From Planococcus shenhongbingii (GTDB lineage: Bacteria > Bacillota > Bacilli > Bacillales_A > Planococcaceae), in assembly GCF_030413635.1 (NCBI RefSeq), contig NZ_CP129235.1, forward strand, positions 1,674,001 to 1,738,000: 64,000 nucleotides of DNA, in the 5' to 3' direction. How positions within the stretch are numbered: the first letter of the stretch is position 1; each line of letters opens with the position of its first letter. Made by a program: the position numbers and the translations under genes. Shown here piece after piece: positions 56,438 through 63,281 of this stretch. Below the pieces are notes generated by a model. The model was not told where the DNA came from. It did no database searches and worked only from the letters and a program-made list of their open reading frames with translations.

Positions 56438-56472
56438 ATTTGCAACAAGCGGTCAACAGGGGGAGAAAGTTG

Positions 56473-57231
56473 ATGGATAAGATAAAAATTGCAATCGCAG
56501 ACGATAATCGCGAATTGGTCAGGCTCATGAGTGATTATTTAAGCGGCCAATCGAACATGGAAATTGTCGCTGTCGCTTATAATGGCAAAACGTGTATCGA
56601 GATGCTGAAACAGCATCAAGTGGACGTCTTGGTCCTCGACATCATCATGCCTTATTTAGATGGCATTGCCGTTTTGGATGCCATAAAAGAAGATGAGAAT
56701 TTGCGCGGGATAGACGTCATCATGCTTTCCGCTTTTGGACAGGAATCGATTATGAGCCAGGCGGCCCAGTACGGCGCTTCGTATTTCATTATGAAACCTT
56801 TTGAAACCGCGCGGCTGGCTATCCAGATCAATCATATAATGCAAAACCGAAAAGACGGCAAGAAACCGAAAAACGAAGAAGCTGAAATCGATGAACTGAT
56901 TACCAGTCTTATTAAAGAAATCGGGGTTCCACCGCATATCAAAGGCTATACTTATTTAAAAGAAGCCGTTTCGCTGGTGCTGAAAAATCCGGATATTTTA
57001 AACAAAGTCACGAAAGAGCTGTATCCTGGCATCGCCAAAAACCTCGATTCAACGCCGGCGCGTGTCGAGCGTTCGATTCGCCATGCGATTGAGGTGGTCT
57101 GGAGCCGCAATGAAACCCAGCATATTTCCAAACTTTTCGGCTACAGCAAAGAACATTTGGCATCGAAACCGACCAATTCACAGTTTATCGCAATGGTTGC
57201 CGATAGCATTCGAATCGAATCTAAATTATAA
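56473..57231 (+). CDS. spo0A: stage 0 sporulation response regulator Spo0A
   Basis: 252 residues. Receiver domain at 1-120 with the acidic pocket Asp10-Asp11, phospho-Asp56 in VLVLDIIMPYLDG and the Lys in IMKPFE. The linker of about 20 residues is shorter than in B. subtilis. The C-terminal effector domain is well conserved, with IGVPPHIKGYTYLKEAV, RVERSIRHAIEVVWSR and KPTNSQFIAMVAD. It starts only 35 bases after recN because spoIVB is absent. In a lineage without sporulation it would be kept for other roles. Confidence 0.95.
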   Translation: MDKIKIAIADDNRELVRLMSDYLSGQSNMEIVAVAYNGKTCIEMLKQHQVDVLVLDIIMPYLDGIAVLDAIKEDENLRGIDVIMLSAFGQESIMSQAAQYGASYFIMKPFETARLAIQINHIMQNRKDGKKPKNEEAEIDELITSLIKEIGVPPHIKGYTYLKEAVSLVLKNPDILNKVTKELYPGIAKNLDSTPARVERSIRHAIEVVWSRNETQHISKLFGYSKEHLASKPTNSQFIAMVADSIRIESKL

Positions 57232-58946: not shown

Positions 58947-59071
58947 GCTTCCACTCCTTCATCTCTATTGTTTCCAATTCGTTTATAGTTGTCAAGAATC
59001 TTATCCTCAGGTACGCTAATGGAGGTAACTGCAAAAAATTGCACATAATTATTGGAAAGGTATGAAGCGGA

Positions 59072-61117
59072 TTGCAAAATGTACTGATTATAGGCGGCGG
59101 AGCCGGTGGTTCCGTTATTCTGCAAATGCTGATGGAATCCGAATACTTGAACGTCTATGGAATTGCGGATATTAATTTGGAGGCTCCGGCGGTTCAGAAA
59201 GCAAAAAAGTTTGGCATCCCGGTTTCTCAGGACTTTAGGGAATTTAATAAAGACGAAGTGGATATGGTGGTCAACGTGTCTGGCAGCGAAAAAGTGCAGC
59301 AGGAGCTCCCGGTTCATTTTCCAAAAAAAACCGTCATTATCCCCGGCAGTATTGCGAATGTCCTGGTCAGATTAATGACGGAGAAACAACATTTCATTTC
59401 TTTGTTGCGGGAAGAAAGCCATAAGCAGAATATCATTTTTAATTCGGTGGAAGAAGGCATGGTCGGCATCAATCAGAAGGGGCAGATCAATTTCATCAAT
59501 AAAAGCGCCGCTCGGATGCTGGAAGTTGAAGCGGAAACGACCATTGGCAGGCCAATCCATGAATATATCACTGCCAGTGAATTGCCGCGCATTTATGAAA
59601 CCGGCAGAACGGAATTGAATCAGGAATTGATTTTGCCGAACGGCTCGAAAATAGTCACATCCCGTTTTCCGATGGTCGATGAGCACGGTGAAACGATCGG
59701 CGCGTTCGCCGTTTTTAAAGACATCACGGAAGTGGTATCGCTTGCCGAGCAAATCACCGATTTGAAAGAAGTCCAGACCATGCTGCAGGCGATTATTCAA
59801 TCGAGCGACGATGCCATTTCAGTGGTTGATGAAAAGGGCAACGGGCTCTTGGTGAATCCCGCTTATACACGGATTACCGGCCTTCAAATGGAAGACGTCA
59901 TCGGCATGCCGGCTTCAGCGGATATTTCCGAAGGGGAAAGCATGCACTTGAAAGCGCTTCAAACGCGCAAGCCGTACCGGGGCGTGAACTTGAAAGTAGG
60001 GCCGGCAAGCCGTGAAGTCATCGTCAATGTTGCGCCGATCATTGTCGATAATAAATTAAAAGGCAGTGTCGGAGTCATCCATGATACTACGGAAATCCGT
60101 TCATTGATGAAAGAATTGGACCGTGCCCGGAGCATCATCCGGACCTTGGAATCGAAATATACGTTTGATGACATCATCGGCTTGAGCTCGGAAATGCAGC
60201 TCAGCCTGCAACAAGCGAAACTTGCTGCCCAGACGCTCGTGACGGTTTTGCTGCGCGGGGAATCAGGGACAGGGAAAGAACTTTTTGCCCATGCCATCCA
60301 TAGCGCAAGCGAGCGGAAATACAATAAATTCGTGCGGGTGAACTGTGCCGCGCTGACTGAGGAATTGCTCGACAGTGAGCTGTTCGGCTACGAAGAAGGA
60401 GCATTGCCAGGCATCAAAAGCGGTGAAAAAAGGGGCTTGTTTGAAGAAGCGAACAACGGCAGCATTTTTCTGGATGAAATCGGCGAGCTGTCTCCGATGA
60501 TCCAAAGCAAACTGCTGCGTGTCCTTCAAGAACATGAAACCTTGCGGATTGGCGGATCGACTCCGATACCCATCAATGTGCGGGTTATTGCTTCCACCAA
60601 TGCCAATATGGAAAAAGCATTGCTAGAAGGGACATTCCGGGAAGATTTGTATTACCGGCTGAACCGGATGCCGATTCTTATCCCGCCGCTGCGCAAGCGA
60701 AAGCAGGACATTCCGAGAATCGTCGACCGCTTATTATTGAAATTGAACCAGGAATACGGCCGGAATATAGAAACGGTGACCGACAAAGCCTTGCAATTAT
60801 TGCGGGTCTACGATTGGCCTGGCAATGTCCGGGAACTTGAAAATGTCTTGAGCCGGGCCATGATTTTCATGCAAATGAATGATAAAGTCCTGACCGAAGA
60901 ACATATTCCGTTAAATATGATCAAAGCGGCAGAAGCCAAGCAGGAAGTCACTTTTGAGTCTTCAGTGCCGCTGCAGGAGCAGCTGGATACAATTGAGCGC
61001 AAGATTCTTCATCATGCACTGACACAATTTAAAGGCAATAAATCCAAAACCGCCAAACAACTTGAAATTTCACTGCGGACGCTTTATTACAAATTAGAAA
61101 AGTATGGCCTTTCATAA
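59072..61117 (+). CDS. bkdR: BkdR-type AAA+ regulator with altered sigma-54 loop
   Basis: 681 residues, named from location before ptb-bcd. Domains: N-terminal Rossmann-like part (VLIIGGGAGG, 1-110), two PAS-like regions (about 115-225 and 235-345), an AAA+ core at about 365-600 with Walker A GESGTGKE and Walker B GSIFLDEIGE, and a Fis-type helix-turn-helix at the end (NKSKTAKQLEISLRTLYYKLEKYG). The loop that should read GAFTGA is GALPGI (bases 60398-60415), so the sigma-54 contact is probably lost. The start is TTG with GGAAAGG 11 bases upstream. Confidence 0.9.
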   Translation: MQNVLIIGGGAGGSVILQMLMESEYLNVYGIADINLEAPAVQKAKKFGIPVSQDFREFNKDEVDMVVNVSGSEKVQQELPVHFPKKTVIIPGSIANVLVRLMTEKQHFISLLREESHKQNIIFNSVEEGMVGINQKGQINFINKSAARMLEVEAETTIGRPIHEYITASELPRIYETGRTELNQELILPNGSKIVTSRFPMVDEHGETIGAFAVFKDITEVVSLAEQITDLKEVQTMLQAIIQSSDDAISVVDEKGNGLLVNPAYTRITGLQMEDVIGMPASADISEGESMHLKALQTRKPYRGVNLKVGPASREVIVNVAPIIVDNKLKGSVGVIHDTTEIRSLMKELDRARSIIRTLESKYTFDDIIGLSSEMQLSLQQAKLAAQTLVTVLLRGESGTGKELFAHAIHSASERKYNKFVRVNCAALTEELLDSELFGYEEGALPGIKSGEKRGLFEEANNGSIFLDEIGELSPMIQSKLLRVLQEHETLRIGGSTPIPINVRVIASTNANMEKALLEGTFREDLYYRLNRMPILIPPLRKRKQDIPRIVDRLLLKLNQEYGRNIETVTDKALQLLRVYDWPGNVRELENVLSRAMIFMQMNDKVLTEEHIPLNMIKAAEAKQEVTFESSVPLQEQLDTIERKILHHALTQFKGNKSKTAKQLEISLRTLYYKLEKYGLS

Positions 61118-61120
61118 GGT

Positions 61121-61158
61121 TTTGCAAATTCTTGCAGGGTTTTGCAAGAATTTGCAAA
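61121..61158. promoter_or_regulatory. perfect 16-bp palindrome, likely BkdR site
   Basis: TTTGCAAATTCTTGCA and TGCAAGAATTTGCAAA are exact complements around GGGTTT. Each arm holds two TTGCA units. It starts four bases after the bkdR stop and has no T run, so it reads as a regulator site rather than a terminator. Confidence 0.75.
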
Positions 61159-61179
61159 GTATTTCAGCTGGAAACATCA

Positions 61180-61193
61180 ATAAAGCGCTTACA
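61180..61193 (+). promoter_or_regulatory. cre-like CcpA site before ptb
   Basis: ATAAAGCGCTTACA matches the cre consensus TGAAARCGYTTNCA at all but the first two bases. It suggests carbon catabolite control of branched-chain amino-acid breakdown. Confidence 0.6.
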
Positions 61194-61249
61194 AGCCTTA
61201 TATATTGCGGATTTATCTGTTTTAATTAAAAGGGAATGGGGTGACAATA

Positions 61250-62158
61250 ATGGCCACTTTAGCTGAACTAATGGATGAAATTTCTATTGAAGCAGACAAT
61301 GCCGTTGCTGTAGCTGCCGCAGCCGATTTAGAAGTGCTTGAAGCCGTCAGTTTGGCAATCGAGCGAGATTTGGCCAGTTTCAGGCTATATGACGATGAAG
61401 CGAAGCTGAAACAAATGATCAGCACAAGCTTTCCGCATCTCATTAATCATCCAAAACTATTAATCTTTCATGTCAAAGGGGCAGCCCAGGCAGCCAAAGA
61501 AGCGGTCAAATCGGTTTATATGAACGACTCCAGTGTTTTGATGAAAGGCCATATACCGACAGCCGTGCTATTAAAAGCGGTGTTGAATCCAGATTTTGGC
61601 TTGCGGACCGGCAATGTATTATCCCACGTGGCAGCTTTTGAAATTGAAGGCTTTGACCGCCTGATTTTCATTACGGATGCCGGGATGAACATCGATCCTG
61701 ATTTGCAGCAAAAAGCACAAATTATACAAAACGCCGTTCAAATCGCCCGCTCTACTGGCGTCCAATTGCCCATTGTGGCACCGCTGGCCGCAGTGGAAGT
61801 GATAAATCCAGCAATGCAAGCGACGCTGGACGCCGCTGCCTTAACGGCGATGAACAAGCGCGGCCAAATTACCGATTGCATCGTCGATGGGCCGCTTGCG
61901 CTCGACAATGCCATTTCCCCAATTGCTGCAAAGCATAAAGGCATTACAGGCGACACCGCAGGCAAGGCGGACATTTTGCTGGTGCCCAATATCGAAGCAG
62001 GCAACATCCTGTACAAATCATTAGTGTATTTTTCAAAAGCGAAAGTGGGAGGCATCATAGCCGGGGCAAAAGCGCCGATTGTATTGACATCCCGTGCAGA
62101 CAGCGCTGAAAGCAAATTGTATTCACTGGCACTCGCACTTCGCTCGTCCAACATTTAA
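61250..62158 (+). CDS. ptb: phosphate butyryltransferase-like enzyme
   Basis: Converts branched-chain acyl-CoA and phosphate to acyl phosphate. 302 residues; VLSHVAAFEIEGFDRLIFITDAGMN, KHKGITGDTAGKADILLVPNIEAGNILYKSL and GAKAPIVLTSRAD are family blocks. The ATG of MATLAELMDE has GGGGTG seven bases before; an in-frame GTG three codons earlier is inside that site. Confidence 0.93.
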   Translation: MATLAELMDEISIEADNAVAVAAAADLEVLEAVSLAIERDLASFRLYDDEAKLKQMISTSFPHLINHPKLLIFHVKGAAQAAKEAVKSVYMNDSSVLMKGHIPTAVLLKAVLNPDFGLRTGNVLSHVAAFEIEGFDRLIFITDAGMNIDPDLQQKAQIIQNAVQIARSTGVQLPIVAPLAAVEVINPAMQATLDAAALTAMNKRGQITDCIVDGPLALDNAISPIAAKHKGITGDTAGKADILLVPNIEAGNILYKSLVYFSKAKVGGIIAGAKAPIVLTSRADSAESKLYSLALALRSSNI

Positions 62159-62183
62159 CGGAACATACTAGGAGGAAATGACA

Positions 62184-63281
62184 ATGGGTATTTTTGAAAA
62201 AATGGAACAGCACGATTATGAGCAACTGGTATTTTGCCAAGATAAAACTTCAGGGCTTAAAGCAATCATTTGCATTCACGACACAACTCTTGGGCCGGCA
62301 CTTGGCGGCACTCGCATGTGGAATTATGCGACGGAAGAAGAAGCAATCGAAGATGCAATCCGCCTTGGCCGCGGAATGACTTATAAAAACGCAGCAGCCG
62401 GGCTTAACCTTGGCGGCGGCAAAACGGTTATCATCGGCGATCCGCTAAAAGACAAAAACGAAGAAATGTTCCGTGCATTCGGTCGTTTTATCCAGGGCTT
62501 GAACGGTCGTTATATCACAGCGGAAGATGTAGGCACAACTGTTGCTGATATGGACTTGATCCATGAAGAAACTGACTTTGTCACGGGCATCTCTCCGGCG
62601 TTCGGTTCTTCAGGAAACCCTTCTCCTGTAACAGCTTACGGCGTATATATCGGCATGAAAGCTGCTGCACTGGAAGCGTTCGGCGACGATTCACTTGAAG
62701 GAAAAACGATTGCTGTCCAAGGTGTAGGAAACGTAGCTTATACATTATGCAAACACCTTCACGAAGAAGGCGCTAAATTGATCGTATCTGACATTAACCA
62801 AGAAGCAGTACAGCGCGCAGTAAATGACTTTGGAGCGACAGCTGTTGAACCGAATGAGATTTATTCACAAGAAGCCGATATTTTTGCTCCATGTGCGATG
62901 GGGGCCATCATCAACGATGACACGATTCCACAATTGAAAGTAAAAGCGGTAGCCGGTTCAGCAAACAACCAATTAAAAGAAGAACGCCATGGTGATGAAC
63001 TTGAAGCTCGCGGCATCGTTTATGCGCCGGATTTTGTTATTAACTCAGGCGGCGTTATCAACGTTGCAGATGAATTATACGGCTACAATAACGAACGCGC
63101 GATGAAACGCGTTGAAACAATCTATGACAGCATTTCGAAAATCTTCGCAATTTCTAAGCGGGACGGCATTCCTAGCTACCAGGCAGCAGACCGCATGGCT
63201 GAAGAACGCATTGAACGCGTAAGCAAATCACGCAGCCAGTTCATGCGCAACGAGCACAATATCTTAAGCAGAAGATTTTAA
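62184..63281 (+). CDS. bcd: leucine/branched-chain amino-acid dehydrogenase
   Basis: NAD-dependent oxidative deaminase of leucine, valine and isoleucine, 365 residues. [27 protein letters not shown] (catalytic Lys), [14 protein letters not shown] and the NAD site [16 protein letters not shown] are visible. AGGAGG is eight bases before the second ATG, which I use. It supplies the oxo acids whose CoA products go to ptb and buk. Confidence 0.95.

Follow-up and report, generated by a model that had tools for sequence, protein, structure and literature searches.

In Bacillus subtilis and Bacillus thuringiensis, BkdR is encoded directly upstream of the bkd operon and is built from two PAS folds, an AAA+ domain and a helix-turn-helix (HTH) domain. 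The bkd promoter of B. thuringiensis is reported to depend on both BkdR and sigma-54, with a GAFTGA-type motif in the regulator and a -24/-12 element, TTGGCACGGTATTTGCT, at the promoter (PMC4428206), and BkdR of B. subtilis has Ser at the fourth motif position (PMC3162934). Enhancer-binding proteins (EBPs) that lack GAFTGA are described at sigma-70 promoters, namely TyrR and DhaR of Escherichia coli and HupR of Rhodobacter capsulatus (PMC3162934), and the same is reported for NtrC of R. capsulatus, NtrC of Caulobacter and VpsR (PMC10274813, PMC12421884). Here we describe the bkdR locus of Planococcus shenhongbingii in a window of 64,000 nucleotides (assembly GCF_030413635.1, contig NZ_CP129235.1, positions 1,674,001 to 1,738,000; coordinates below are those of the window unless a contig or locus is named). 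Its BkdR, orthologous to the two Bacillus proteins by gene order and alike in domains, has neither the motif nor the -24/-12 promoter, and a sigma-A-like promoter is found instead. We consider it quite probable that this BkdR is independent of sigma-54 and works on a sigma-A promoter that was rebuilt in place.

The initial annotation of this stretch had read a GALPGI loop beside intact Walker motifs and had seen no GG-N10-GC between bkdR and ptb. Pointing to TyrR-like members that lack the motif and use the housekeeping polymerase, it proposed a move to sigma-54-independent control, possibly after loss of sigL in the lineage. Translation of the open reading frame (ORF) and a reading of its motifs confirm the loop and both Walker motifs, a search of both strands finds no GG-N10-GC in the gap, and TyrR, DhaR and HupR are cited cases of the kind invoked (PMC3162934). 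The tandem operator (61123-61156), the cre-like site and the sigma-A-like promoter described below are additions to that annotation.

59072-61117, + strand: bkdR, 681 amino acids, from the ORF list and the orthologue survey
60257-60280, + strand: Walker A motif of BkdR, GESGTGKE, intact, with no nonsynonymous differences among 28 Planococcus sequences
60398-60415, + strand: L1 loop of BkdR, GALPGI, replacing GAF[ST]GA
60461-60490, + strand: Walker B region of BkdR, SIFLDEIGEL, intact
61250-62158, + strand: ptb (phosphate butyryltransferase), the first gene of the operon, an ORF above the cut-off of NCBIfam model NF005837

By Pfam, BkdR comprises an N-terminal region, two PAS folds, an AAA+ domain of family PF00158 (Sigma54_activat) at residues 368-535, the AAA+ lid and a Fis-type HTH. 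The AAA+ features of sigma-54-dependent EBPs are all present, with the sensor motif IASTN and the arginine-finger motif FREDLYYRLN in addition to Walker A and B, as are the Fis-type HTH and an upstream operator, which BkdR presumably binds. The GAFTGA-type loop and a -24/-12 promoter at the adjacent target are absent, and BkdR shares with the GAFTGA-less EBPs an altered loop beside a retained ATP site. By its loop and its promoter, BkdR lies outside the working sigma-54 activators, though it descends from them; a mode of action of the TyrR kind is probable. Francke et al. (2011) class as inactive changes of F3 other than to Tyr and of T4 other than to Ser, Glu or Asp, and describe about 110 EBP homologues with minor motif deviations in which position 4 prefers Pro (PMC3162934); GALPGI of P. 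shenhongbingii matches this preference.

Four proteins with strong PF00158 matches are encoded in this genome, BkdR among them. The other three, serving as a positive control, have the loops GSFTGA, GAFTGA and GTFTGA and each adjoin a -24/-12 element scoring 15 (TTGGCACGGAACTTGCT, TTGGCACGCTTATTGCT and TTGGCATAGTTTTTGCA), which indicates that the search works and that the exception is specific to BkdR, the only one of the four without loop and without promoter. Since no site in the bkdR-ptb gap reaches a -24/-12 score of 14, this scoring and the strand search rule out a degenerate element hidden there. A sequencing error in a single genome is ruled out as well: GAF[ST]GA is missing in 28 of 28 Planococcus loci of a family sample and in all 25 loci of a named Planococcus/Planomicrobium set, the two sets overlapping in genomes.

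The family survey covered 200 genomes, evenly drawn from a larger group, from which 98 bkdR-like loci were fetched and 94 were usable; G053 and G045 (paralogues by score), G140 (contig end) and G158 (internal stop) were excluded from the tree and the 94-row table. Full-length similarity and the tree, with BkdR of B. subtilis outside it, place the 94 orthologues from nine genera in one group. Genus names of the genome groups are presumed assignments: g1 Planococcus, g6 Viridibacillus, g17 Rummeliibacillus and g11 mostly Paenisporosarcina. In the loop alignment across Planococcaceae, a check suggested by the initial annotation, the loop is lost in 82 of the 94 (28/28 in Planococcus, 2/2 in g12, 4/4 in g2, 18/18 in g3, 8/8 in g4, 18/18 in g5 and the remainder in g11), often by deletion and with the ATP-site motifs still recognisable. 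G[AS]F[TS]GA is retained in 12 (Viridibacillus 3/3, Rummeliibacillus 4/4, g11 5/9), and 10 of these reach a -24/-12 score of 14 or more. Row by row, loop and promoter are both lost in 82 and both intact in 10, two have the loop without the promoter (G061 and G107), and the reverse never occurs.

The outgroup consisted of named records, the best 80 of 407 relatives, an order-level draw of 81 genomes having stayed within the same family; its 48 rows, less two from Rummeliibacillus (L303 and L317), gave 46 loci, most of them titled as Bacillaceae and a few carrying other names. All 46 have GAF[ST]GA and a -24/-12 element scoring at least 14 within 260 bases behind bkdR, and for this reason the intact state of loop and promoter was taken as ancestral. 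If never regained, the loop was lost six times (in g3; g4; g2 with g5; G100; G030/G011/G072; and Planococcus with g12), a count from a quick tree with some branch support below 95; the unpolarised tree needs at least three changes. Within g11, G061 and G107 have an intact loop and a broken promoter, both are broken in G030, G011 and G072, and both are intact in G047, G082 and G091. Sigma-54 was undetected in the first five of these genomes (G107 being 81% complete), which can be read as intermediates of the loss of loop and promoter.

Across 46 genomes of the Planococcus group, sigma-54 is found in 12 and undetected in 34. A second strong EBP (PF00158, above 220 bits) accompanies sigma-54 in 12 of 12 genomes and is missing from all 34 others (Fisher p 2.6e-11, relatedness uncorrected), and a BkdR-sized PF00158 protein is present in 45 of 46, the remaining genome, G210, carrying bkdR with a broken frame. 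BkdR was recognised here by length and score, with tree orthology tested for 28 of the 46. With a BkdR-type gene in all 46 and a second strong EBP only where sigma-54 occurs, BkdR is the sole EBP retained throughout, whether or not sigma-54 is there. The sigma-54-independence put forward in the initial annotation is well supported by the decay of the loop, the decay of the promoter and the BkdR-type gene in 34 of 34 genomes in which no sigma-54 was detected, among them G210 with its broken frame. In three of the latter (G069, G202 and G044) a weaker second EBP has its loop deleted; the proteins concerned (L336, L337 and L338) are PAS-EBP-like with the whole loop gone, and Walker B reads FLEQIEE in the first two.

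The pattern of substitutions is consistent with this picture. Among 28 Planococcus bkdR genes, the ratio of nonsynonymous to synonymous differences per site (pN/pS) is 0.16 for the whole gene, 0.10 for the AAA+ domain minus the loop region, 0 for Walker A and 0.53 for the six loop residues, all approximate given the nearly saturated synonymous sites (pS about 0.77). Loop positions 3, 4, 5 and 6 rank 3, 4, 8 and 1 of 249 AAA+ positions for variability. Judged by these values, relaxation is concentrated at the sigma-54 contact, and the remainder of the protein is strongly constrained. That BkdR is instead decaying and functionless, with ptb constitutive, is hardly credible: the relaxed loop and the broken bkdR frame of G210 would agree with it, but the whole-gene ratio, the absence of nonsynonymous change in Walker A, operators conserved in 28 of 28 loci and the occurrence of a BkdR-type gene in every one of the 46 genus genomes would not. 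The frame break in G210 (L339) lies inside the AAA+ domain and may be an assembly error.

The whole-genome search for rpoN/sigL that the initial annotation had recommended gave a result contrary to simple loss: the genome has two intact sigma-54 genes (matches C1:631635 and C1:835651), both with activator-interacting domains, which rules out complete loss of sigma-54 in this organism. Neither is the cggR-linked SigL. Three Viridibacillus and two g11 genomes carry a sigma-54 gene immediately ahead of cggR-gapA, behind clpP in the g11 pair, and these five genes form a single clade with support of 100. The cggR locus of P. shenhongbingii has no linked sigma-54, and none was found in the upstream 1.5 kb of 28 other readable loci, including 9 of Planococcus and 4 of Rummeliibacillus. 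The suggested loss of sigL in the lineage thus fails as worded and is supported in a narrower form, for the cggR-linked gene. Of the pairing that the initial annotation had named as evidence against its proposal, a sigL gene together with a mapped -24/-12 start of ptb, sigma-54 is present and the mapped start is not. Forty sigma-54 regions were fetched with their neighbours, plus the two of our genome, and 62 of 74 loci entered a sigma-54 tree (11 second copies and the fragment L135 were dropped). One of the two genes falls in a clade mixing Planococcus, g3, g5 and g11, the other in a Planococcus clade sister to g5 copies. This pattern suggests that the ancestral SigL was lost and that other sigma-54s were separately acquired or retained, in a tree whose long branches leave transfer unproven. 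The regions around the two genes (G000:C1:617058-632111 and 826000-841500; L043, L044 and L045) hold amino-acid and peptide catabolic genes with EBPs nearby. In G194 (L225) and G187 (L227), EBPs carry a GAFTNA loop and the sigma-54s of both genomes form a long-branched pair of their own; loop and sigma-54 possibly co-vary there.

These two genes, with their activator-interacting domains, and the degenerate GG-N10-GC at the old place in a few other Planococcus gaps would agree with a BkdR that still drives one of the sigma-54s of this genome through an unusual loop at a non-consensus promoter. We regard such a mechanism as very improbable, since 34 of the 46 Planococcus-group genomes have bkdR and no sigma-54 that could be detected, the gap of P. 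shenhongbingii has no GG-N10-GC, the loop varies freely, and its changes are of the kind classed as inactive (Francke 2011).

What occupies the old promoter position in Planococcus is a candidate sigma-A promoter behind a cre-like block.

61180-61193: cre-like element, probable CcpA site, a conserved block in Planococcus that is slightly changed in g11
61198-61203, + strand: putative -35, TTATAT, 17 bp ahead of the -10 (TTATAT in 25 of 28 loci, TTATAA in 2, TTATCT in 1)
61218-61226, + strand: putative extended -10, TG-n-TTTAAT, at the old sigma-54 -12 position

An alignment anchored on the downstream region shows the TG and the TTTAAT in each of the 28 Planococcus loci, with n being T in 22, C in 5 and G in 1. 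TGn-TTTAAT recurs in 25 of 25 loci of the named set, 21 of which read TCTGnTTTAATTA and 4 of which differ in the base after it. Invariant columns make up 12 of 14 in the -35, TG and -10, 2 of 14 in the spacer (the TC before the TG), and 1 of 130 among fourfold sites of conserved residues. Of the 8 g11 loci displayed, 7 read TGC-TTAAAT in the homologous stretch, TGC being the -12 element, and G107 has TGA; g12 reads TGA-TTAAAT. From this alignment, the TG of the -12 appears to have been retained as the TG of the extended -10, the C, a requirement of sigma-54, being freed to vary. What speaks for a sigma-70/sigma-A target promoter is sequence, namely the conserved extended -10 and its spacing, and both the identity of the ptb promoter and its start are predictions. 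GG-N10-GC occurs in 5 of the 28 Planococcus gaps, against 2.9 expected from shuffles, and in 3 of the 25 named loci; apart from the sites discussed below, the best -24/-12 scores in Planococcus (12-13) lie inside the end of bkdR or span its stop and the first operator half-site. The CcpA site was called by its likeness to the cre consensus, and catabolite control may have outlived the change of sigma factor.

The operators flanking bkdR bear on whether BkdR activates or represses.

58989-59017, + strand: putative sigma-A promoter of bkdR, TTGTCA-N17-TACGCT
59030-59043: single operator, TGCAAAAAATTGCA, just downstream of the bkdR -10; probable autoregulatory site
61123-61156: operator array, probably bound by BkdR, of four TGCA half-sites in 10-bp steps, which form two palindromes TGCAA-N4-TTGCA with a spacing of 20 bp

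The four-half-site pattern has a single match in the window and none in 100 shuffles, and each of the three steps shows TGCA-N6-TGCA in 28 of 28 loci of Planococcus. In these 28 and in both g12 loci the palindromes are spaced by 20 bp, which sets all four half-sites on one helix face; where both palindromes match in g11 (7 loci) and Viridibacillus (1 locus), the spacing is 19 bp. Upstream of bkdR the single operator is present at 89 of 98 loci overall (28 of 28 in Planococcus), and in most other genera it lies, as read by eye, behind TATGAT-like -10s; this position just after the bkdR -10 points to autorepression. None of the 50 g2-g5 loci has the array behind bkdR and 47 have the upstream operator, and BkdR may control the whole operon there as an autorepressor, the least certain step of our account. 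Genome-wide, TGCAA-N4-TTGCA occurs at 8 places, three of them at bkdR/ptb, against 4 for a reversed control; the case for a wider regulon is weak and we claim no further targets.

The same operators could be taken to mean that BkdR is a repressor of the sigma-A promoters of both bkdR and bkd, released by branched-chain amino acids or keto acids. We consider this possible but rather unlikely. It would agree with the site just after the putative bkdR -10 in most genera, with g2-g5, where control of the operon probably runs through the upstream site, and with the reported ability of a TyrR-type protein to repress (PMC3162934). However, the array lies about 75-110 bp upstream of the predicted ptb start, clear of the promoter, where activation fits better. 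The extended -10 with its poor -35 also speaks for activation, this combination being typical of activated promoters.

Several points weigh against an activating, sigma-54-independent BkdR at a converted promoter. The promoter elements were picked on the same alignment that was used to count their conservation, neighbouring columns are invariant too, the cre-like block above all, and the -35 is a poor one (TTATAT versus TTGACA). GG-N10-GC stands at the old -24/-12 place in G194, G097 and G105, where n is C, and TTGGCTTTTATTCTGCT (score 12) is found at the old position in G194, which has sigma-54, and in the named locus L260; this sequence may be a relic or chance. In the G194 locus (L015) this element lies about 87 bases past the bkdR stop, alongside the extended -10. 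Rummeliibacillus, in which loop and promoter are intact, has a sigma-54 gene without linkage to cggR. Some sigma-54 is present in 35 of 82 loop-lost genomes, and of the 12 with an intact loop 3 have none detected, so that the state of the loop is no simple reflection of the sigma-54 present today; of the correlation of loop with sigL that the initial annotation had proposed to examine, what holds is that the Viridibacillus and g11 relatives with the cggR-linked gene have an intact BkdR. G091 has loop and promoter with zero sigma-54 matches, which is probably an assembly gap because its contig stops 233 bp upstream of cggR, where SigL would lie. On the tree there are 2 independent pairs for promoter versus loop, and sign tests with 2 and 3 pairs are too few for significance. 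For Caulobacter NtrC, which lacks the motif, an influence on sigma-54-dependent genes was reported from mutants in DNA binding (PMC12421884), and we identified no surface of BkdR that would activate sigma-A polymerase. Finally, the losses of loop and promoter, the conserved sigma-A-like elements, the operators and the distribution of sigma-54 are read from sequence; the transcription start, activation as against repression, the role of ATP and the order of events are all steps that we infer.

Weighing these points, we still favour sigma-54-independent activation, and the following course of events could provide a mechanistic explanation. The ancestral cggR-linked SigL would have been lost first, after which the sigma-54 contact loop would have drifted. 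The -24/-12 promoter of the ptb-bcd-buk-lpd-bkd operon would have become a sigma-A extended -10 promoter at the same spot (TTATAT-N17-TTTAAT with TGn), the TG of the extended -10 sitting where the old -12 TGC lay. BkdR would have retained its sensor domains, ATP site, HTH and operators, and its most likely binding site is the array of four half-sites, whose centre lies about 93 bp ahead of the predicted start and from which it would recruit sigma-A polymerase as a class I activator, as other GAFTGA-less EBPs do. ATP binding would probably govern its assembly, and it would probably repress its own promoter through the operator just behind the bkdR -10. The complete combination—conversion in place from sigma-54 to sigma-A with reuse of the TG, a loopless BkdR acting as an ATP-gated class I activator, autorepression in g2-g5, and at least six losses if the loop was never regained—is tentative, with somewhat less than an even chance of holding in all its parts.

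Like TyrR, DhaR, HupR, NtrC and VpsR, BkdR of Planococcus is an EBP homologue without a working GAFTGA. Unlike these proteins, which belong to other subfamilies and hosts, it has intact sisters, apparent intermediates and a promoter change that can be traced base by base. A further parallel comes from Neisseria meningitidis, which has a defective rpoN and expresses pilE without sigma-54; the class II -12/-24 element of pilE is described as conserved and without overlap with a sigma-70 site (PMC6755734), whereas in Planococcus the -12 apparently became an extended -10 and the activator was kept. In the open-licence literature we found no report of GAFTGA loss in BkdR or of such a promoter change in Planococcaceae. 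How a sigma-54 circuit outlives sigma-54 can rarely be observed. In these related bacteria, several of them named isolates, a single orthologous regulator and its homologous promoter are found in intact, half-broken and rebuilt states, so that both the sequence of events and the minimal set of changes become testable. The locus also advises caution in annotation, as a PF00158 protein is not automatically a sigma-54 activator: 34 of 46 Planococcus-group genomes have one with no sigma-54 found.

The neighbouring genes follow the order expected of a BkdR orthologue, bkdR-ptb-bcd-buk-lpd-bkdAAB. Beyond ptb, we take the names bcd, buk, lpd, bkdA1, bkdA2 and bkdB from gene order and similarity, which holds also for the next gene.

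62178-63281, + strand: bcd (leucine dehydrogenase-like), an ORF without an NCBIfam model above cut-off

The ATG of ptb is at 61250, and its first listed start is an in-frame GTG at 61241. Directly behind the bkd operon (L046:11513-13207) lies what we take to be a methylmalonyl-CoA-mutase-like gene, and upstream of bkdR the ORF at 56440-57231 presumably encodes a Spo0A-like response regulator of the sporulation type.

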